From an uncultured Candidatus Saccharibacteria bacterium (GTDB taxonomy: Bacteria; Patescibacteriota; Saccharimonadia; Saccharimonadales; Saccharimonadaceae), in contig CAMZEB010000001.1 of NCBI GenBank assembly GCA_947305705.1, forward strand, positions 62,001-126,000: a DNA stretch of 64,000 bases. The letters are read 5' to 3'. The translations under genes and the position numbers were made by a program. Shown one piece after another: positions 9,870 to 19,042 of the stretch. Positions within the stretch are counted from its first letter, which is position 1. Each line of letters starts with the position of its first letter. The notes under the pieces are model-generated. The model was not told the DNA's origin and searched no databases. It worked only from the letters and a program-made list of their open reading frames with translations.

Positions 9870-11990
9870 TTAGTTTAACTTTTTGCGGCTAATAATGTAA
9901 TAACCAGCAGCGGTTGCGACGCTAGCTGCGCCAACTACGCCAGAAATAACAGTGTTTGCGCCAGTCTTTGGCATTGGAGGATCTTCCTCACATACCTTAG
10001 CATGAACAGTAACATCAGCGGTGTCAGACTTTTCAGTCTTAGCATCGTTGTTGTACTTACCCTTCGCAACGTTGCGGAGAGTAGAATCGTTACATTCGTC
10101 AGCTGGGGTATTGACCGTAGCGTAGAAGTACACAGTTGCTTCGGTACCCTTTGCGTAATCGCCGATGTTAATACCATCGTTGCTTACAATACCGTCACCG
10201 AGAGTCTTGCCGTTGGTGTTCGCAGCGTTGTAAAGAACAGTGCTGCCCTTTACGTAACTGATACCAGCTGGAAGAATATCACGGATGACAACATTCTTGA
10301 GGGTAGTGTTGCCAGTGTTCTTGAATTGGATGCGGTAGCGAATAGTATCGCCAGCTTTTGCAGTTACATCCTCTGCCCAGTCACTACCACCTTTGATTTG
10401 AACCATCTTGTTGATAGTAAAGCCTGGGTTTTCTTTCTCAGAACAATCTTTGCCGTCGACAGAGACAACTGCGGTGTCAGACTTTTCAGTCTTAGCATCG
10501 TTGTTGTACTTAGCCTTAGCAGTGTTTGTAAGTTCAATCTTCTCGCAGATGTTAGCGAGATCGCCGTTCATCGTGACGAAGAAGTAAAGGTTAACGGTCT
10601 TACCAGCGGCGACAGAACCGATGTTGATACCGTCAGTAGAGACGACACCATCAGCGAGCTTCTTACCGTCGAGGTTAGTGCTACCTGCAACATAGGTTTC
10701 GTTTGCTGGAAGGATATCGCGAATAACGACATTCTTGAGCTCAACGTTACCAGTGTTCTTGAATTGGATGCGGTATTCTACCTTATCACCAGCTTTAGCG
10801 GTGATGTTTTCAGTGAAATCGTTGCTACCGAGGCGAACTTTCTTATCGAGAGTGAAGCCTTCCGTACAAACTTTGCCGTCGACGAGAACGTCAGCGGTAT
10901 CTTCTTTTGTACCGGTAGTTTGACCTGCGCTAGCCTGAGCGATGTTGCGGAGAAGCGTATTGGTACACTTATCAGAAACACCAGCTTTGACCTTTGCGTT
11001 GAAGTAGAGAACTGCGTTTGCACCTGCAGCATAATCGCCAATGTTTATACCATTGGTACTAGTGATATTATCGCTGAGCGCAACACCCTGCGGATGATTG
11101 CCGTTGATAATAGTAGTCGTACCGTTGATATATTCTAGATCGCTAGGGAGAAGATCGCGGACAACGAGACCATTGATGTCAGCGTTGCCAGTGTTCTTGA
11201 CCTGGATACGATAGCGAACCGTGTCGCCAGATTTTGCTTTGGCCTGTTCGCTCCAGGTATCAGTACCGAGGATTTTAACTTCCTTTTGGATGCTGATGTT
11301 TGGAGTTTGAGCTGGTTGAGCAAATTGAGCCTTCACACGGAAGGTAAGGTAACCAGAATATTTGTTACAACCAGGAAGATTACCATCCATAGTGTTGTAA
11401 CCAAGAAGAGCACCACGATCGTCTAGAAGTTCGTTGCCAATAGAGAAGGTACGGATTTTACCGTTGTCATCAGTATTGGAATAAACAGCAGAACCTGCGA
11501 CGTAGGCGAGGTTAAACTTTTCACCATTCTTTGATACAAAATGTGTTTCGTCCCAAACAGAAGTTGGGTTTGCGTTATCGGCACTAATTTTGCCGCTAAC
11601 AGTAATCTTTGTGCCGGTCTCGGTTGGGAGAACGACGAAAGCTTTGGTATTTTTTGCGATACCTTCACCGGTTTCGAAGTTAACAAGGTTTGAACCCATG
11701 TTGTTATGTACATACATACGAACAACATATTCCTTGCCATCCTCTACCTGAGTCTCATCAGAGAAATAGTTGTCATTTGCGTTACCAGTCCATTTGGAAG
11801 CAGCAACGAAATAACGCTCATCACCGATAACGTTATCGGTAATGGAGTTAAGTGTAATGTAGTTAGCTGGGCTTTCCATCTTGAAAGTTGCACGATCAGT
11901 AGGACCCCAAGCGAAAACTACAAAGGCGCTAGTAGCGGCGACGGCAGCGACGGCTGCAAGACCGATACCAGCCTTGGTAAATTTCTTCAT
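9870..11990 (-). CDS. Sortase-anchored surface protein with three DUF11 repeats
   Basis: A 706-residue wall-anchored protein. The signal peptide is MKKFTKAGIG plus an alanine-rich core to about residue 30. After an N-terminal domain of about 200 residues come three DUF11 (conserved repeat domain) modules, each with FKNTGN...VRDxLP and a GD...RIQ-type edge. The C terminus reads PPMPKTGANT, then a hydrophobic span and RKKLN, which is an LPxTG-type sorting signal. Two modules share a stretch of nearly identical DNA (around 10018-10062 and 10471-10515), a sign of recent duplication. I chose ATG at 11990 over TTG at 11996 because the AAAGGA site is 10 nt from the ATG and only 4 from the TTG. A stalk or adhesin role is inference. 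Confidence 0.9.
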   Translation of the reverse strand: MKKFTKAGIGLAAVAAVAATSAFVVFAWGPTDRATFKMESPANYITLNSITDNVIGDERYFVAASKWTGNANDNYFSDETQVEDGKEYVVRMYVHNNMGSNLVNFETGEGIAKNTKAFVVLPTETGTKITVSGKISADNANPTSVWDETHFVSKNGEKFNLAYVAGSAVYSNTDDNGKIRTFSIGNELLDDRGALLGYNTMDGNLPGCNKYSGYLTFRVKAQFAQPAQTPNISIQKEVKILGTDTWSEQAKAKSGDTVRYRIQVKNTGNADINGLVVRDLLPSDLEYINGTTTIINGNHPQGVALSDNITSTNGINIGDYAAGANAVLYFNAKVKAGVSDKCTNTLLRNIAQASAGQTTGTKEDTADVLVDGKVCTEGFTLDKKVRLGSNDFTENITAKAGDKVEYRIQFKNTGNVELKNVVIRDILPANETYVAGSTNLDGKKLADGVVSTDGINIGSVAAGKTVNLYFFVTMNGDLANICEKIELTNTAKAKYNNDAKTEKSDTAVVSVDGKDCSEKENPGFTINKMVQIKGGSDWAEDVTAKAGDTIRYRIQFKNTGNTTLKNVVIRDILPAGISYVKGSTVLYNAANTNGKTLGDGIVSNDGINIGDYAKGTEATVYFYATVNTPADECNDSTLRNVAKGKYNNDAKTEKSDTADVTVHAKVCEEDPPMPKTGANTVISGVVGAASVATAAGYYIISRKKLN

Positions 11991-12069
11991 AATCAATAAT
12001 CCTTTCTTTGAAAATAATTTCTAGAATGGAGAAAATACTACAATTCATTAGCCAGGTTGTTAAACTCTA

Positions 12070-12090
12070 TAACAAATCAGATCGTTGCCG
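12070..12090 (+). repeat. 21-bp inverted repeat, left copy
   Basis: TAACAAATCAGATCGTTGCCG here is matched at 19 of 21 positions on the opposite strand at 14378-14398. The two copies enclose the two-gene membrane module. Confidence 0.55.
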
Positions 12091-12193
12091 AACACAAATC
12101 ATTGGAATTGGGAGGGGCCATTAAAGGTCCCTCCCTATATATGTACAAGCGGTATTATGAGGCCCGCTCTTTGCCTTTTGTGTTGGAATTATT

Positions 12194-13576
12194 CTATTCG
12201 AAGTCCGTGACTTCGACTGTGTTGATCGGGTCATCAGCAAGGGCGTCCTCTACCGGAGGTTTATCCGGATTGGACGGGTCTGCAATCTCGCCAAGATCTC
12301 CGTTGTTTTTGCCGTTGCCGGCTTCAACATCGTAAGTCTTGCCATCATGCACCTCGGTTTTACCGTTGTCGGTATCCTGAGTCTTGCTGCCACTCTTAGT
12401 GTCCTTCGATGCCTCGGACTGAGGCGCCGGAGTTACTGGAGTGGTAGTAGGAGTCTGGGTCGGAGTCTGTGTAGCAGGCTTGGTCTCTTCCGATGCCGGA
12501 GGAGTAGGCGCTACATATTCCTTTGTAGGAGAAGTAGGCTCCGAGGTTCCCGTAGTGTCAGGGTCATGGTTGATACGATCAGGCGAGTAAAACTCGTGCT
12601 GATCAGCGCCAGCCGCATTTTGTGGATCATTTGCCGGATCCTTCGGCTCTGGAGTTGGGTTATCAGGGATTGGAGGCGAAGGCGGTACCGGAATATCTGG
12701 AACATCTACCGGCTGGTAGCCGCATTCCAAACGGAAGCGGATGGTTTTCCAGACATCTTTCTCGACTTCGACCGTAAACAGGGCGAAGTGGCCTCCTGCG
12801 TTTGTCGTCTTACGAACGATAATGCTAGGAATGCCCTTCTCGACGCCATCTCTATACATATACATTCCTGATGTATAGTCAGACATCTCTTTGATCTCCT
12901 GTTTCGTCCATGGTCCCCACAAGAGATCAATAATGCGGTCTCTTGCGTAGTCCCAATCCTCTTGGTTCTTCATGAACCTCTGTAGAGCGGCATTAGGTCG
13001 CTGATCTACAGGAAGCTCCTGCTCCTCCTTGAGAATCGGACAAACTCCACTGATGCCATACTGGTCAAGGGCGCAAGCCCAAGCTGCAGTAAAGGCTGGA
13101 TCAAAATAAAGTAAAAACGCTGGTTTACCCGAGTCGGGATGGTTCGACATCGCCTCGACGATAGTTTCTGCCTTCTTGTCTGCCACTTCTTTTTCTGCCT
13201 TTTTGTAGGCATTTTTATCGAAGTTGAGATCGAAGACATACTCGTCGATAGTCTTATACTTACCGTCTTTTACGGCCTGTTCTGCTTTCGCATAGCAGTC
13301 GTCAAAGAAATTGAAACGTCCGAGCTTATTGTCGGAATATGTAAGAAAGACTATATGACGTTCCGTATCCGCGTCCTCTTCGTCGGATTTCGACGAATCG
13401 GTCGCGGTCGGTTTTGCGTCGTTATTATCCTTAGACGGGTTGCTCTTGGAAGAGTCCAGCGTGGCGGCCGTTCCTGCCATAGCATCTGCGATTGGCTCGC
13501 GGAAGGCGAAGAACAGACCGACCGAAAGCAGCATGACTGCAAGCGCAGCTGCTGCTATTCTGCCACGTCTTGACAT
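12194..13576 (-). CDS. Membrane-anchored extracellular protein with proline/threonine-rich tail
   Basis: A 460-residue protein of unknown family. A short basic start (MSRRGR) is followed by one hydrophobic segment (about 8-27) that could be a signal anchor. A charged Ser/Lys/Asp linker leads into a folded domain of about 230 residues (about 72-300) with many aromatic residues. The last 160 residues are disordered and rich in Pro, Thr and Asp (PTPTQTPTTTP-like). There is no sorting motif, so anchoring would be by the N terminus. The start is set by AAGGAGGTGAT, a full anti-SD match. It lies 12 nt after the partner membrane gene, so both form one operon. Confidence 0.75.
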   Translation of the reverse strand: MSRRGRIAAAALAVMLLSVGLFFAFREPIADAMAGTAATLDSSKSNPSKDNNDAKPTATDSSKSDEEDADTERHIVFLTYSDNKLGRFNFFDDCYAKAEQAVKDGKYKTIDEYVFDLNFDKNAYKKAEKEVADKKAETIVEAMSNHPDSGKPAFLLYFDPAFTAAWACALDQYGISGVCPILKEEQELPVDQRPNAALQRFMKNQEDWDYARDRIIDLLWGPWTKQEIKEMSDYTSGMYMYRDGVEKGIPSIIVRKTTNAGGHFALFTVEVEKDVWKTIRFRLECGYQPVDVPDIPVPPSPPIPDNPTPEPKDPANDPQNAAGADQHEFYSPDRINHDPDTTGTSEPTSPTKEYVAPTPPASEETKPATQTPTQTPTTTPVTPAPQSEASKDTKSGSKTQDTDNGKTEVHDGKTYDVEAGNGKNNGDLGEIADPSNPDKPPVEDALADDPINTVEVTDFE

Positions 13577-13588
13577 AATATCACCTCC

Positions 13589-14215
13589 TTAGTTTTTTCT
13601 TACCTTGACGTGCTTTAACAGGTCAAGGATAAGAATTGACAGTGCAAACGTTGCAGCTGAGAAGAAAAAGATAGTAATAACCATCATTGTCTTGTCTGGA
13701 ACATATTCGATTACATCTCTGTAATACTTAATGTTCCCTGCGTTATCGGCGACTGCTTTTGTCACGCTCGACGCAATGCGAGCGAACGGACGAACCTGCT
13801 CCTTGACCAAATGGTCGAAGACCAAGAATTTGCCCGCGATGCCGCCAGCGACCGCGCAAGCAACAATGATGAGAAACTGCCACCAAGTCCATACTTCGAT
13901 GGTCATGGCGCGAAGCTGTCTCATTATCTTGTCGCCCCACTTGTTGACGTTCGCATCAGTCTGTGCTGCCATCTTGGTCGTAGTATCAACCGAGATATCA
14001 GCGACGCGACGGATGTCATCTCTGGTGGGAAGCGCATCGATTCGCTTTGCGAGCGAAGACTCTACATGTGCAGCGTTGCGGGTGCTAGTATCGACGATTA
14101 CGCCGGTAGCTCTCACTAGATCAGCACGCTTGACAAAGGTCGGAGCCTTAGTTGCGGTAGTCTTAGTGGTCGTCTGAGTTGTTGTGGTTTTGGAACCTGA
14201 TTTTTTCTGTGTCAT
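13589..14215 (-). CDS. Two-helix membrane protein, partner of the downstream anchored protein
   Basis: A 209-residue protein of unknown family. The frame is open back to 14281, but AGGAGG lies 8 nt before the ATG at 14215, so that start is preferred. A Thr/Lys-rich N-terminal tail is followed by a helical, heptad-like region with repeated V-D-T-S/T-T motifs, and then two membrane segments (about 108-130 and 178-201). It is the first gene of a two-gene operon behind a consensus promoter. The tail-plus-two-helix plan could be a scaffold or anchor for the second protein, but no function can be assigned. Confidence 0.72.
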   Translation of the reverse strand: MTQKKSGSKTTTTQTTTKTTATKAPTFVKRADLVRATGVIVDTSTRNAAHVESSLAKRIDALPTRDDIRRVADISVDTTTKMAAQTDANVNKWGDKIMRQLRAMTIEVWTWWQFLIIVACAVAGGIAGKFLVFDHLVKEQVRPFARIASSVTKAVADNAGNIKYYRDVIEYVPDKTMMVITIFFFSAATFALSILILDLLKHVKVRKN

Positions 14216-14377
14216 TTTTGTATCCTCCTGTGATTTTTCCGAAGGATTTCCTCCGGGCGCTGATGGGTTAAAGAGTTGCATCTATATCAACTGCTATGCC
14301 CCATTACCCGGGGGCGCCGCAGATAATTTTTCGGGCCCCTTAAGGGGATGATTTCCAACACAAGCTGTACTTATGTA

Positions 14378-14398
14378 CAGCAATGATCTGATTTGTTA
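14378..14398 (-). repeat. 21-bp inverted repeat, right copy
   Basis: The minus strand reads TAACAAATCAGATCATTGCTG, matching 12070-12090 with two differences. It lies in the 5' leader of the two-gene operon and forms part of a leader that also holds the hairpins GCTGTAC...GTACAGC and CCCCTTAAGGGG. Confidence 0.55.
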
Positions 14399-14447
14399 AT
14401 TCAACACCTCTTGCATAAGCTTTTACCGCTCGCAATTAGCTGGACTT

Positions 14448-14476
14448 ATTATATCAAATCTTTGTCTTTTTGTCAA
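14448..14476 (-). promoter_or_regulatory. Consensus promoter of the two-gene membrane operon
   Basis: TTGACA, 17-nt spacer, TATAAT on the minus strand: a perfect sigma-70-type consensus. The leader to the first ATG is about 225 nt and rich in hairpins, which leaves room for leader-level control. Confidence 0.8.
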
Positions 14477-14538
14477 TAGTATTTTGTAGGAATTTACGGA
14501 TTAGGCGGTTTATTTTATACATAAGCGGTTTGATATGG

Positions 14539-14544
14539 TATAAT
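14539..14544 (+). promoter_or_regulatory. Extended -10 box of the 159-residue gene
   Basis: TGG-TATAAT with 10 nt to the ATG at 14555. No Shine-Dalgarno fits, so the mRNA is nearly leaderless. Confidence 0.6.
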
Positions 14545-14554
14545 CATAAGTGTT

Positions 14555-15034
14555 ATGGGGCTAAATATTAACTTAATTAAGCGCACAACGAAGACAAATA
14601 CCTCTGATATTATCCACAGTTCTGGCTATGTTTCTGGCCGCGAAGGGGCCGTTTTTGGCTCTAGCGATAATACAACATTTTCCGAGAGACAGCAAATCGA
14701 GCAGCAGCGCAAGCTAATTAAGGGATATCGCAACGCCCAAGTGGCAAGAGGAACTGGCATTTTACCGAGGACAAAAAGCTATGAGGACGAGGTGGCTGTG
14801 CAAGCAAAAATTGCCGAAATTGAGCAAAACGAACGGTTGCGTGGGACGTCTAAACAAGAATTTAACCTAAATCAAGATAGAGGCGGATTGCGCCAATATG
14901 ATACAAGATCTAGAGAAAATGTCGCTAGATATGGAAGCGCTAGAGAGGCGTCAGGCGCCATAAGAGCGGAACGGGCGAGTCGTTTTGATGCAAAAGCTCG
15001 ACCGGTACCAAAAACAGGGAGATTTGGACGGTAA
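14555..15034 (+). CDS. Basic hypothetical protein, probably largely disordered
   Basis: A 159-residue protein rich in Arg, Gln, Glu and Ser, with no hydrophobic segment and long charged helical stretches (ERQQIEQQRKLIKGYRNAQ). No family was recognised. Its Arg-rich tail could bind nucleic acid. It converges on prfA with only 4 nt between the stop codons. The extended -10 box just before the ATG supports the start. Confidence 0.65.
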   Translation: MGLNINLIKRTTKTNTSDIIHSSGYVSGREGAVFGSSDNTTFSERQQIEQQRKLIKGYRNAQVARGTGILPRTKSYEDEVAVQAKIAEIEQNERLRGTSKQEFNLNQDRGGLRQYDTRSRENVARYGSAREASGAIRAERASRFDAKARPVPKTGRFGR

Positions 15035-15038
15035 CAGA

Positions 15039-16070
15039 TTACTCTGAGGCAGTTTTTAGCTCGCGTTCGTGAGCTTGGAGAGCCTCGATAATATCTTCGA
15101 TATCGCCGTTCATAGCGGCGGAAATGTTGCTGCGGTTATAATGGATGCGGTGATCTGTAATACGGTCCTGCGGGAAGTTGTAGGTGCGGATTTTTTCACT
15201 GCGGTCCCCTGTTCCGATAAGAGATTTGCGCGCATCGGAGGCATTGGCGCGATCCTCGGCGATTTTGCGCTCAAGAAGGCGACTCCTCAAGACCGTCATA
15301 GCCTTGATGCGGTTTTGCTGTTGAGAGCGCTCATCTTGCATGGCAACTACAATGCCGGTTGGAAGATGGGTGATACGGACGGCGGAATCGGTCGTATTGA
15401 CGCCCTGCCCACCGTGGCCGCCAGAGCGATAGATATCGATACGAAGATCCTCGGGGTTGATCTCGAGATCCTGTTCCTCGGCCTCTGGAAGAACAGCGAC
15501 TGTTGCAGTGCTGGTATGGATGCGCCCCTGAGATTCGGTAACTGGGATGCGCTGAACACGGTGGACGCCACCCTCGAATTTGAGTTTGCCATAAGGTTGG
15601 TCGCCAGAAATGCGGAAAATTACCTCTTTGTAGCCGCCAGCGTCGTTGATTGACTCAGATTGAAGCTCAACTTTGAGACCATGCGTCTCGGCGTAGCGAG
15701 TGTACATACGATAGAGGTCGCCTGCAAAGAGGCTCGCTTCGTCGCCACCGGCGCCAGCGCGAATCTCTAGGATAGCCGGTTTGTCGTCATTAGGGTCCTT
15801 CGGAATGAGCATTTCGGAGAGTTTCGCCTCGGTTTCGGCGAGTTCCCGCTCGAGGTCAGGCTTCATTTCGGCGAGATCTGGGTCGATTTCAGCCTCTTTG
15901 ATGTCGTTGACGAGCTGGTCGCGCTTTTTCCCTGTCGCGATTAGCTCTTCAAGTTCTTGAAGACGGCGGTTTTTGGCAGCAAAATCTGGAGCAGCATAGG
16001 CATCTGGCTGGCTCAAAAAGTCAGTGATTTCTTGTTTTTCGGTGTTTAGAGCATCAAAATCGAGGTTCAT
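15039..16070 (-). CDS. prfA: Peptide chain release factor 1
   Basis: Releases peptides at UAA and UAG. The 343-residue protein has the RF1 recognition region ([15 protein letters not shown], with PVT as the PxT stop-codon reader) and the GGQ loop that triggers hydrolysis. The loop reads [15 protein letters not shown]. Most RF1 proteins have AGGQH, so the residues on each side of GGQ are unusual, but GGQ itself is intact. The start ATG lies 7 nt after a TAAAAT box on the minus strand. A separate RF2 must exist elsewhere because UGA is used as a stop in this window. Confidence 0.95.
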
Positions 16071-16106: not shown

Positions 16107-17027
16107 CTACTGGAATTGGTCAGTATCCACTTTATATAAAATGTCGCCAGAGACGCCGCAGCTAGTATTTATAGATGTAAGCACCGGGTATGGTTTACCG
16201 CATAGGACCCAGCCAGCATCACCGCGTTTGAGAATAAATCTATAAATATCACTAATATATCCGACTTTTTTGGCTATATAACCGTACAGATAATTACCTT
16301 CTTCCTTAGTGTCGCCTAAATGAAAGCCGTCCATAGCGCTGCCGAAGCCTGAATGTAAATATTCATACGGATCAGTTTGAGCATTACTGGCAAATTCAAC
16401 TATGAATGGCGACTCGAATTCTTTTATTTCTACGTCATACTTCGTAATGTCGTCTTGAGTAAGAACTTCCATTAGTCGCGAAATTGCTAGCTCACGAAAG
16501 TCTCGATTCGCCTTAACTATGACTTTAAATTCATCCGTCTCAGAAAGCTCATAACTTAAGGTATAATTAGGAGTTTTTATTGGAAATTTTGACATTAGCG
16601 GGAACTGCTCGCGCACTGATTTACCATAGTTAGATTGAGCTTTCGCTACAAGACCGGATACTGCAGAAAATTCATTTTCATGTTCCCTTGCATATTTTTC
16701 GCCCGCTTCATTGTTTGGAGTAAGGTAGCCATAGACTGTAGTATTTTCAGTAATATCGTATTCCTGTTCTAGAGAATCAAAATTCTCAAATTCAACCTTA
16801 AATGTATGCTTGCCTGGCGTAAGATAGTGCGTGGCGTTATTTTTATATTTGTCGCCGTCTATACGAACTGTACTCGCATATGGGGCATATACCACTTTCA
16901 CTTCATATTTGCCAATCCGAGAAATTAGGATGATAGCAGAATAGATTACAATAGCTACCGCAGCGAATATCAGTACAATTATTGCGATTTTTATATTCCG
17001 TTTCTTTCGCTCGTCTACATCGTTCAT
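16107..17027 (-). CDS. Single-pass membrane protein with PEGA-like domain
   Basis: A 306-residue protein: a basic start (DERKKRNIK), one membrane helix (about 14-36), then a PEGA-like beta domain (about 42-100: VRIDGxKY...LTPGKHTFKVEFENF...YDIT) and a second extracellular domain of about 180 residues with no recognised family. It begins 2 nt after the stop of the wall-hydrolase gene (TAA-GC-ATG), so the pair is co-translated. A role beside the wall enzyme at the cell surface is plausible. Confidence 0.75.
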   Translation of the reverse strand: MNDVDERKKRNIKIAIIVLIFAAVAIVIYSAIILISRIGKYEVKVVYAPYASTVRIDGDKYKNNATHYLTPGKHTFKVEFENFDSLEQEYDITENTTVYGYLTPNNEAGEKYAREHENEFSAVSGLVAKAQSNYGKSVREQFPLMSKFPIKTPNYTLSYELSETDEFKVIVKANRDFRELAISRLMEVLTQDDITKYDVEIKEFESPFIVEFASNAQTDPYEYLHSGFGSAMDGFHLGDTKEEGNYLYGYIAKKVGYISDIYRFILKRGDAGWVLCGKPYPVLTSINTSCGVSGDILYKVDTDQFQ

Positions 17028-17029
17028 GC

Positions 17030-19042
17030 TTATTTCCTATGCACCCATCGTACTATTTCTTTTGTTACCTTATCATCTTCTAGGCCGTATATAACCCCTT
17101 CCATCCCCGATACCGGCGCCCTAGCATGAGCATTCCCGTTACTCGAGTAAGAAGCTGATGCAATATGCGTCTGGAAACCATCCACTTCACCTATGTAAAG
17201 ATATGTATGGCCACATGCCGATGTCTCTATATTAGTCTCATTACAATGCGTGTACGCGACATCGCCTGGCGATAAAACACTCTCGTCAGGGATAGGCGTA
17301 TTCCAATCTGGGTTTACAAGTTCCCATTGTTCTGGGTGACTGCGAACATATGGCACTTGCCCGTATCCGACATTGCTAGCACCGTCGCTAATTTTTCCAT
17401 AATAGTTATATTCTGGCGCGAAACCACTTTCATTTAGAATAGTCGTTACGAAGCCGCCGCAGTCAATGCCAGAAACGCCATCAACTGAGCCGCCAACATA
17501 AAGACCTTTGCTTTGGCGCGTTTTTACAGCTTCGGCATAATCTGGCATCCTATCAGTAAATGGCGCCGCATGCCACTCTGGCCACACGAAACGTCTCACA
17601 TAAGAGATAAGACTGCTATTGTCAGTACAGGAGCTGCCAGACATTCCGCCGATAGCCGAATATTTAACGAACGTGCCGAAGTTATATGATACTGCCTGAT
17701 CGTCATATTTATGATCGGCAACATATTTCCCGCGCCAAAGCGGATCCATTTTGTCTGGCTTGGTTGGATCGCGACGCTCATCAAAACGGTTCATCACATA
17801 TGGAGAGCCTTCGCCGATATTTGCCTGTTCTTGGCTGTAGCCCATGGCAAGTGCTTTATCTATGTATTGCTTCGCTTTGCCGTTATACTGAAAGAACACC
17901 ACCTTCGCACCTTCATCGCTTTGTAGGTCAAGTTTATTTGAGTTGATTATGCTTACGACAAGGTCTGCGGCGAGCCTGGTTTGGCGGATAAATTCTTCTT
18001 CAGTAACGGCGCCTGCTGGCAAAAATGCTTTGTCTGGATCGAGTTCACTCGTGCCTTTTTTGCGCGTATAAGAATAAAGCTGATAAAGGCCTTGCCCGTT
18101 TTCCGGGTTATCAACAAACAAATTATGCTCAACACTATGAAGCGTGGCAAGCAGCTGCCATTTAATGCCGTATTCCTGCGCCACTAGTTCGTAGACGTGT
18201 TTATTCTGATTAATCCTATCAAGCTCACCTTTTGTCCAGACATCCTGACCATCATAACTTTTGTTATCACCATTATTACCGACATTTTCGTTCCAATTCG
18301 AAGCAATGGCATTCTTGAGCATAGTCACAAAGGCCTTTTTCCCTTCATCAGTTAGATGAACACCCAGAGAATTTGGGTCAGAGATATATTTGTCCGCATA
18401 GCCAGACACCGCTGAATTCCAATCTGCCACTGAAACATTATCATGTGTTGCCGCATATGACCTGATTGCATCATTATTTTTATTATATAAATCGATATTA
18501 TTTTTGATGCTGAAATTTGTAGTTAAGAGAATCTTCGTATTCGAACCGGCCGCAGCAACAAGATCGTCGAGCACTTTCTCAGTCACCATACCAGGGCTAT
18601 TAGTCCCAAGTGCAAAAATTAGATGACTACGGAGTTCGTTTTTTTCTACTAATTTCTTAACTAGCGTTATGCCATCGTGGTTCGGCCCGTCCTCATCGCC
18701 AGAAAACACTTTGCTAACTTTTATAAGATTATAGGTAGTACCATCATACACTTTATCTTCGCCGTCGATACCAGGGTATTCGTTTTTTATGCTGTCATAA
18801 ATCGAGACTGATATAGAATCACCGATATACGTGATATTGTCGCCCTTAACTGCATAAGTGCTGCATTTGCCCTCATCTTGATCATAAAACATAATATTAT
18901 TTGAGGCGTATTTGTCGAGGGTTTCATCATTAATAGCGGATACGATTACCGTATTAAAACAAAGCAATATGGCGATTGAAAAATAGAACGAAACTAAAAG
19001 AGTATTTTTAGCTCGTAGAAAAAGATTATTCCCGTTCCTCAT
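17030..19042 (-). CDS. Three-domain cell-wall enzyme: SGNH esterase, lysozyme-like domain, NlpC/P60-like peptidase
   Basis: A 670-residue secreted protein. After a signal peptide (about 1-37) comes an SGNH/GDSL domain with YIGDSIS (Ser about 76), a GTNS block and a C-terminal VHLTDEG block holding the catalytic His. The middle (about 285-400) looks like a lysozyme/transglycosylase fold: a helix with LHSVEHN, where Glu is the likely acid, and GQGLYQL. The last 170 residues carry an NlpC/P60-type core, GIDCGGFVT (Cys about 528) followed by CGHTYLYIG (His). It could deacetylate or acetylate, cut glycan and cut peptide. The ATG lies 6 nt after TATAAT, so it is leaderless. Domain names rest on motifs and would benefit from profile searches. 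Confidence 0.82.
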   Translation of the reverse strand: MRNGNNLFLRAKNTLLVSFYFSIAILLCFNTVIVSAINDETLDKYASNNIMFYDQDEGKCSTYAVKGDNITYIGDSISVSIYDSIKNEYPGIDGEDKVYDGTTYNLIKVSKVFSGDEDGPNHDGITLVKKLVEKNELRSHLIFALGTNSPGMVTEKVLDDLVAAAGSNTKILLTTNFSIKNNIDLYNKNNDAIRSYAATHDNVSVADWNSAVSGYADKYISDPNSLGVHLTDEGKKAFVTMLKNAIASNWNENVGNNGDNKSYDGQDVWTKGELDRINQNKHVYELVAQEYGIKWQLLATLHSVEHNLFVDNPENGQGLYQLYSYTRKKGTSELDPDKAFLPAGAVTEEEFIRQTRLAADLVVSIINSNKLDLQSDEGAKVVFFQYNGKAKQYIDKALAMGYSQEQANIGEGSPYVMNRFDERRDPTKPDKMDPLWRGKYVADHKYDDQAVSYNFGTFVKYSAIGGMSGSSCTDNSSLISYVRRFVWPEWHAAPFTDRMPDYAEAVKTRQSKGLYVGGSVDGVSGIDCGGFVTTILNESGFAPEYNYYGKISDGASNVGYGQVPYVRSHPEQWELVNPDWNTPIPDESVLSPGDVAYTHCNETNIETSACGHTYLYIGEVDGFQTHIASASYSSNGNAHARAPVSGMEGVIYGLEDDKVTKEIVRWVHRK

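Follow-up and report, generated by a model that had tools for sequence, protein, structure and literature searches.

A candidate accessory wall-opening protein of a saccharibacterium that joins OatA-type SGNH, lysozyme-like and NlpC/P60 domains and is kin to a hydrolase of a type IV secretion operon

The question of how ultrasmall epibionts breach the walls of their hosts is the background to this analysis. We analysed a locus in the genome of an uncultured Candidatus Saccharibacteria bacterium (885 kb, 99.5% complete), very probably an epibiont of other bacteria, in a 64-kb stretch of DNA, here called the window. In the window, positions 17030..19042 of the minus strand are one intact open reading frame (ORF) of 670 amino acids, and the plus strand across 17030-19042 is full of stops. 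The initial annotation had described three successive motif sets in a single 670-residue chain, and these lie in the order described on the minus strand within this one ORF: GDSIS at residue 74 (Ser76), GTN at 146-148 and GVHLT at 227 (His229); HSVEHN at 302 (Glu305) and GQGLYQL at 316; and, in the C-terminal part, GIDCGG at 525 (Cys528) and CGHTY at 610 (His612). A promoter scan upstream of the gene found none.

Scans of the query protein against Pfam, NCBIfam and PHROGs gave just sub-threshold GDSL and tail-protein matches; in Pfam, Lipase_GDSL_2 reached E 0.0039, below the cut-off, and the other two domains had no match. Therefore, alignments of our own were needed. Among the relatives, 55 SGNH, 11 lysozyme-like (LYS) and 48 NlpC domains were found, of which 34 and 26 of 55, 11 of 11 and 31 of 48, respectively, were used as alignment rows. 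The resulting family profiles place SGNH at residues 66-247, LYS at 260-467 and NlpC at 475-648 of the query. Moreover, intact frames with the whole architecture occur in two further members of the genus, whose proteins are 49% and 43% identical to the query (L069/L007 and L070/L008). Because the architecture recurs in this way and the profiles find the domains, we conclude that the motifs are not due to chance. The profile search of each domain that the initial annotation had called for thus supports SGNH, lysozyme-like and NlpC/P60 folds, and the three superfamilies that it named are found together in one predicted exported chain. An AlphaFold model of the query as a lone sequence had a pLDDT of 34.7 and was too poor to use. 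The chain begins with an N-terminal hydrophobic signal sequence (about residues 1-36, ...VSA/IN; 18935..19042, minus strand) with a hydropathy peak at residues 15-37 and a cleavage site placed by eye; from this leader we infer that the protein is exported by Sec.

The SGNH domain (residues 66-247; 18302..18847, minus strand) carries Ser76, Asn148 and His229 and has no Asp at His-3. A profile of 26 rows, from which AT3-bearing proteins were excluded, matched the C-domains of OatA in the PDB at E 2.3e-19 to 8.6e-17 and the next family at 2.9e-7; OatA C-terminal SGNH domains (PDB 5ug1, 5ufy, 6vjp, 6wn9) are by far the closest solved relatives of the family's SGNH domains. In tblastn with the query alone, the annotated match outside the group was Listeria oatA, at 30% identity. 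By these comparisons, the query SGNH domain is specifically OatA-like, i.e. of the peptidoglycan O-acetyltransferase type. Unlike OatA, the query chain has no N-terminal Acyl_transf_3 membrane domain and lacks the Asp at His-3 of the Ser-His-Asp triad, which in OatA is complemented by an oxyanion Asn; in the pneumococcal enzyme, the triad includes Asp568 and His571, as given in the available part of the OatA report (PMC5697884). Among 34 aligned SGNH domains, Ser is present in 33, Asn in 32, His in 31 and Asp at His-3 in 23. The last is absent from the query, from both relatives of the same type and from the genome's own core paralogue (see below). In the relative in G026, whose gene also lies beside a release-factor gene, Phe replaces Asn and Leu replaces His. 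Because Asp is missing from the query and Asn and His are lost in this syntenic relative, SGNH chemistry in the query appears doubtful. According to the same part of the OatA report, isolated OatA C-domains have weak esterase activity, with an efficiency 45- to 252-fold below that of a genuine O-acetylpeptidoglycan esterase (PMC5697884). Given the incomplete triads and this weak activity, the domain may remove acetyl groups, transfer them or simply bind.

The genome also encodes a separate OatA-like protein (L074:3465-5312, minus strand), with Acyl_transf_3 at E 2e-31 and SGNH by our own profile. Its presence suggests that the saccharibacterium's own wall is probably O-acetylated. Block III of this protein reads ATN instead of GTN.

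A phage origin of the query was considered and rejected, as no relative was found in IMG/VR by two alignments. In the phage collection, just the SGNH part was matched, by four unannotated Listeria records (OR848271, OR846888, OR848364, OR846926). Because the same stretch is annotated oatA in a record of the plasmid collection, these four "Listeria phage" matches are probably chromosomal DNA.

The lysozyme-like domain (residues 260-467; 17642..18265, minus strand) is of the SLT/goose-lysozyme type, with Glu305 as the predicted catalytic residue. In profile-profile comparisons with nine SLT domains from the same order as the query (Saccharimonadales), LYS was matched at probabilities of 89% and 94% (E 2.2e-6 and 1.1e-7), and the alignment paired Glu with Glu, GQGLYQ with GAxGxxQ, and YNG with YNxG. 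Two control pairs of unrelated profiles gave 0.4% and 0.2%, i.e. no match, as a check against chance similarity between LYS and SLT. The best PDB match of LYS was a goose-type lysozyme at E 0.0053, which is weak taken alone. The catalytic Glu is present in 11 of 11 aligned domains, and the query sequence follows the catalytic-Glu E / GxGLxQ / YNxG frame of SLT/goose-type (GH23-like) lysozymes. Against the core proteins, which carry another lysozyme, LYS gave a weak match at 7% probability.

The NlpC/P60-like domain (residues 475-648; 17099..17620, minus strand) contains Cys528, His612 and Ser629. It matched Spr/MepS at E 0.0022-0.0031 with Cys and His aligned, and the active-site Cys and His are present in order in 31 of 31 aligned NlpC domains. 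The third residue in NlpC/P60 (C40) enzymes is typically polar, i.e. His, Asn or Gln; in the 31 aligned domains it is Ser in 25, Glu in three, Gln in two and His in one, and in the query it is Ser629. The initial annotation had proposed that the chain combines esterase or acetyl-transfer activity with glycan and peptide cutting. The domains, the conserved Glu and the conserved Cys/His are consistent with the two cutting activities; by contrast, the part that concerns SGNH catalysis is called into question by the residues missing from the query and its G026 relative.

Directly after the signal sequence, at residues 38-60 (18863..18931, minus strand), the query has a conserved tag, LDxxAxNNIMFY[DN]x..C. 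In most full-length members of the family the consensus is LDxFAxNNIMFY[DN]P..C, and it directly follows the leader whatever domain comes next. The tag was found in 48 of 72 distinct family ORFs, a count that is not independent because the tag profile was built from 20 N-termini of the same family. Here, the 72 ORFs comprise one row per distinct C-terminal 150 residues, and the copy in the window was excluded because L001/L003 already represent it. Of the 24 ORFs in which the tag was missed, several are incomplete frames or OatA-like proteins. Within the query's own genome, the tag profile matched just the core paralogue (1.3e-13), the query (1.7e-12) and a third, weak place (E 0.07) with an internal stop.

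Two bp downstream of the query gene lies a gene for a 306-residue membrane protein with a single strong membrane helix and a PEGA-like domain (16107..17027, minus strand), which agrees with the co-encoded PEGA-like membrane protein of the initial annotation. This partner may hold, regulate or neutralise the enzyme. The PEGA match of this partner is sub-threshold (E 0.0012); among 15 aligned partner proteins, 11 matched PEGA at E 0.1 or better, with a best value of 1e-6. The partner profile had no PDB match better than E 0.98, and an AlphaFold model of the partner with one relative (pLDDT 48.3) was too poor to judge a VirB8-like fold. The pairing is conserved. An adjacent PEGA-like neighbour was present for 37 of the 48 tagged ORFs, downstream in the core and query types and upstream in most long mosaics, and the groups formed by the partners match those of their hydrolases. 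For six of the 11 tagged ORFs without such a neighbour, the fetched DNA ends on the side concerned (L015, L017, L037, L049, L065, L075), and the true exceptions are L038, L043, L047, L053 and L071. Outside the genus, the partner often takes the form of two shorter proteins in succession (L091-L094).

Beyond the partner lies the gene for release factor 1 (PCRF 1.4e-62, RF-1 4.4e-42). The neighbourhood in G026 seems to be the same: positions 9870-16070 of the window and L079:4040-9943 of G026 apparently share one gene order, with a surface protein that has DUF11 repeats, two membrane or exported proteins, a small gene on the plus strand and release factor 1. The query gene is about 155 kb from the genome's only VirB4 place. 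At that place, within the genome's own type IV secretion system (T4SS) operon, lies a paralogue of the query (L073:4075-5892), a Phage_lysozyme2/SGNH/NlpC hydrolase that we refer to as the core paralogue. The operon has the order PrgI, TraC-like protein, VirB4, large membrane protein, hydrolase paralogue and PEGA-like protein (PrgI PF12666 5.6e-14; VirB4 PF19044 5.1e-30). It is adjoined by recF, dnaN and dnaA, which were named by reading translations, and T4SS pilins (PF18895) are near.

This arrangement is shared across the genus. The large membrane protein is directly upstream in 25 of 26 core loci, and the 26th starts at a contig end; VirB4 is present in five of the five core loci for which enough DNA was fetched; and the PEGA-like protein follows directly in 24 of 26, with contig ends truncating the remaining two loci. 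The enzyme in the T4SS slot varies. In G028 it is an SGNH-Phage_lysozyme2-LYS-NlpC mosaic, and in G042 and G047, which belong to other families, the slot is occupied by a LYS protein, preceded by PrgI and VirB4 and adjacent to recF/dnaN; for G047, the slot protein is shown to have CHAP fused to LYS. In the NlpC tree, the three query-type domains and 24 core domains form one supported set (99/98). Together, the slot proteins and this tree indicate that the lysozyme type and the NlpC domain of the query belong to the stock of secretion-slot enzymes.

In one genome, the large membrane protein that precedes the core hydrolase (L082:1937-5206, plus strand) has CHAP near its end (PF05257 1.3e-5). 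Loci L038 and L047 (G013 and G002) have a second, diverged copy of the large membrane protein before a tagged SGNH protein (1e-62 and 1e-52), which points to a possible second cluster of secretion-like type; the roughly 10 kb fetched further upstream contained no VirB4.

Matches to the query family were found in 37 of 37 genus genomes searched and in three of 24 from other families of the order. Most genus members have the core paralogue of about 600-740 residues with Phage_lysozyme2, SGNH and NlpC, a statement based on Pfam for two proteins, end-to-end alignment of 14 and 26 loci in the sample. By contrast, the exact order SGNH-LYS-NlpC without another lysozyme is rare, being found in three of the 37 (G000, G007 and G026), and we therefore regard the query module as accessory. 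Three more genomes (G014, G019 and G028) combine SGNH, Phage_lysozyme2, LYS and NlpC/CHAP. A Pfam scan of 30 diverse members found Phage_lysozyme2 in 19, GDSL in 14, CHAP in nine, C39 in four, M23 in three and glucosaminidase in two, as well as GH3, M15, Amidase_2, Amidase_3 and SLT once each. Across the order, the NlpC profile matched in 79 of 246 genomes. In the SGNH tree, the query lies outside the core SGNH group and near the long mosaics, a weak placement (82/86 at that fork, 66/94 at a deeper fork). A simple duplication of the core gene was rejected, as the query's SGNH domain falls outside the core group and its lysozyme is of another type; because its NlpC domain groups with the core and its SGNH domain does not, the query is a re-assorted relative and not a plain copy.

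Three proteins of about 510 residues (L059:894-2420, L061:1841-3379 and L062:2140-3660, all plus strand) combine Big_2 repeats with a T4SS pilin domain (PF18895, 2e-11 to 1e-13) and, at the C terminus, the NlpC domain of this family, i.e. a secretion pilin fused to a wall peptidase. A protein of 1200 residues from another family of the order (L058:4113-7715, minus strand) has Phage_lysozyme2, GDSL, GH3, Amidase_3 and NlpC domains and a PEGA-like neighbour. Several core hydrolases are 110-150 residues longer at the C terminus (L023:280-2487, plus strand; L012, L018, L025, L084), and the extension in L023 has a weak 3D-domain match (0.0042).

The most likely explanation is that the query is an accessory wall-opening module of VirB1/PrgK descent that was duplicated and re-assorted. 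We give a probability of about 0.58 to its being a second, chromosomally separate relative of a VirB1/PrgK-like T4SS wall-opening module. This reading is based on the single VirB4 place with the operon of the core paralogue, the NlpC grouping, the occurrence of the query's lysozyme type in the secretion slot, the shared tag and the layout of the pCF10 locus described below. The protein would be exported by Sec and would stay at the cell surface beside its PEGA-like single-span partner, on which it would probably be docked. The SLT/goose-lysozyme domain would cut the glycan strand and the NlpC/P60 domain the stem peptide, and the peptidoglycan would be opened locally. The OatA-type SGNH domain would engage O-acetylated MurNAc, from which it may remove the acetyl group that blocks lysozyme, or which, given the incomplete triad, it may merely bind. 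Because an epibiont needs to reach its host, the host wall, or both walls at the point of contact, would be the likelier substrate. Several observations count against a VirB1/PrgK-like role: the query gene lies outside the T4SS operon and beside a release-factor gene; the partner has no sequence similarity to PrgL; the SGNH triad is incomplete and the SGNH domain does not group with the core; and the module is rare. In addition, domain homology is not activity, as the single active domain of PrgK illustrates in the part of the PrgK report available (PMC11323569).

The same observations bear on other readings. The query could be an autolysin that splits or remodels the cell's own, partly O-acetylated peptidoglycan, its SGNH domain undoing the acetylation by the cell's own OatA. 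The own OatA-like protein and the probably O-acetylated own wall fit such a role, and NlpC/P60 autolysins are common. However, occurrence in three of 37 genus genomes would be odd for a division enzyme, the NlpC domain groups with enzymes of the T4SS operon, and the gene adjoins that for a release factor and not division genes. Thus, we consider an autolysin unlikely. Close pairing with a PEGA-like neighbour, together with a great turnover of domains among paralogues, as in effector repertoires, could instead point to a secreted antibacterial effector. The hydrolase would then be directed against the host or competing cells, and the membrane protein would give the producing cell immunity; for a T4SS, pairs of effector and immunity protein are known, according to the accessible part of the relevant report (PMC10933484). 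We regard this effector reading as rather improbable, because a partner also accompanies the one conserved copy within the secretion operon, a setting that fits docking or a structural part better, the partner groups mirror those of the hydrolases, and the leader is of the Sec type and not a known T4SS signal.

We consider it very improbable that the query mainly binds or has a structural role at the surface, its enzyme domains having degenerated. The absent SGNH Asp, the Asn and His lost in the G026 relative and the unusual third NlpC residue favour this reading, and the degenerate LytM domain of PrgK, as described in the same available part, is a precedent (PMC11323569). By contrast, the conservation of Glu throughout the 11 aligned LYS domains, and of Cys and His throughout the 31 aligned NlpC domains, argues that selection maintains two of the three activities.

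These findings tie a defined set of predicted wall-cutting enzymes to a secretion system that others report to be essential for epibiotic growth, and a testable role can be proposed for wall O-acetylation, own or host, in the encounter between epibiont and host. A broader and tentative idea, which we hold with less than even confidence, is that the genus runs a mix-and-match set of exported wall openers, with a shared tag, a PEGA-like dock and cutting domains that can be swapped (phage-tail lysozyme, SLT, glucosaminidase, amidase, CHAP, C39, M15, M23 and NlpC) arranged round an OatA-derived SGNH domain that reads or strips O-acetyl groups. One copy would be fixed in the T4SS operon, and others, such as the query, would be docked to the same or a related machine by tag and partner to suit the chemistry of the host wall. 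Were this so, the repertoire of wall cutters could help to set host range.

Among known systems, the pCF10 locus has VirB4 followed by PrgK (Phage_lysozyme2 2.6e-29, CHAP 6.5e-21) and then by a small protein at the place of PrgL, so that PrgK occupies the position of the core paralogue in the saccharibacterial operon and the two loci have one layout. PrgK is a T4SS wall hydrolase. Its lysozyme domain, similar to those of phage tails, is a muramidase that is damped by CHAP and by a degenerate LytM domain; PrgL binds PrgK, and in vitro the muramidase is the sole active domain, all as stated in the available part of that report (PMC11323569). Both PrgK (LytM, phage-tail-lysozyme muramidase and CHAP) and the query are multi-domain proteins with a glycan cutter, a C-terminal cysteine-peptidase-like domain and a small protein next to them, and in both one domain is degenerate. 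PrgK moreover shares the Pfam lysozyme PF18013 with the query's operon paralogue. The query differs in that its lysozyme is of the SLT/goose type, in that it has an SGNH domain of OatA type, and in the location of its gene outside the secretion operon; its partner is unrelated to PrgL in sequence (probability 0.4%, no similarity). In terms of VirB1/PrgK-type features, the query has a glycan cutter and a C-terminal CHAP/NlpC-type domain in a predicted exported chain that is not encoded in a T4SS cluster. Because the query lies outside this cluster and its paralogue inside, we regard the query as related to, or working like, VirB1/PrgK hydrolases and not as a proven member.

For Ca. Southlakia epibionticum ML1, homologues of peptidases and lysozymes whose genes directly follow virB4 are reported to be essential for epibiotic growth, in the available part of an account that cites its reference 37 (PMC12102498). 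These enzymes are T4SS-linked and have the same operon place as the query's paralogue, a likeness drawn from their description; the available part of the account names no SGNH domain, tag or PEGA-like partner. An OatA-type module beside lysozyme and NlpC domains, a shared tag and a paired partner also found no mention in the literature searched, which was mostly without subscription journals. CwlT is a bifunctional lysozyme and C40/CHAP-type enzyme of mobile elements. Enzymes of the CwlT/TraG type resemble the query in that a single exported chain includes both a glycan-cutting and a cysteine-peptidase domain; to our knowledge, they have no SGNH domain, tag or PEGA-like partner. TraG is named in the available part of the PrgK report (PMC11323569). 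In total, bifunctional lysozyme-peptidase hydrolases of secretion systems are already known, and the novel elements here are an SGNH domain of OatA type within such a chain, a tag common to much of the family, a PEGA-like partner and a repertoire of reassorted domains.
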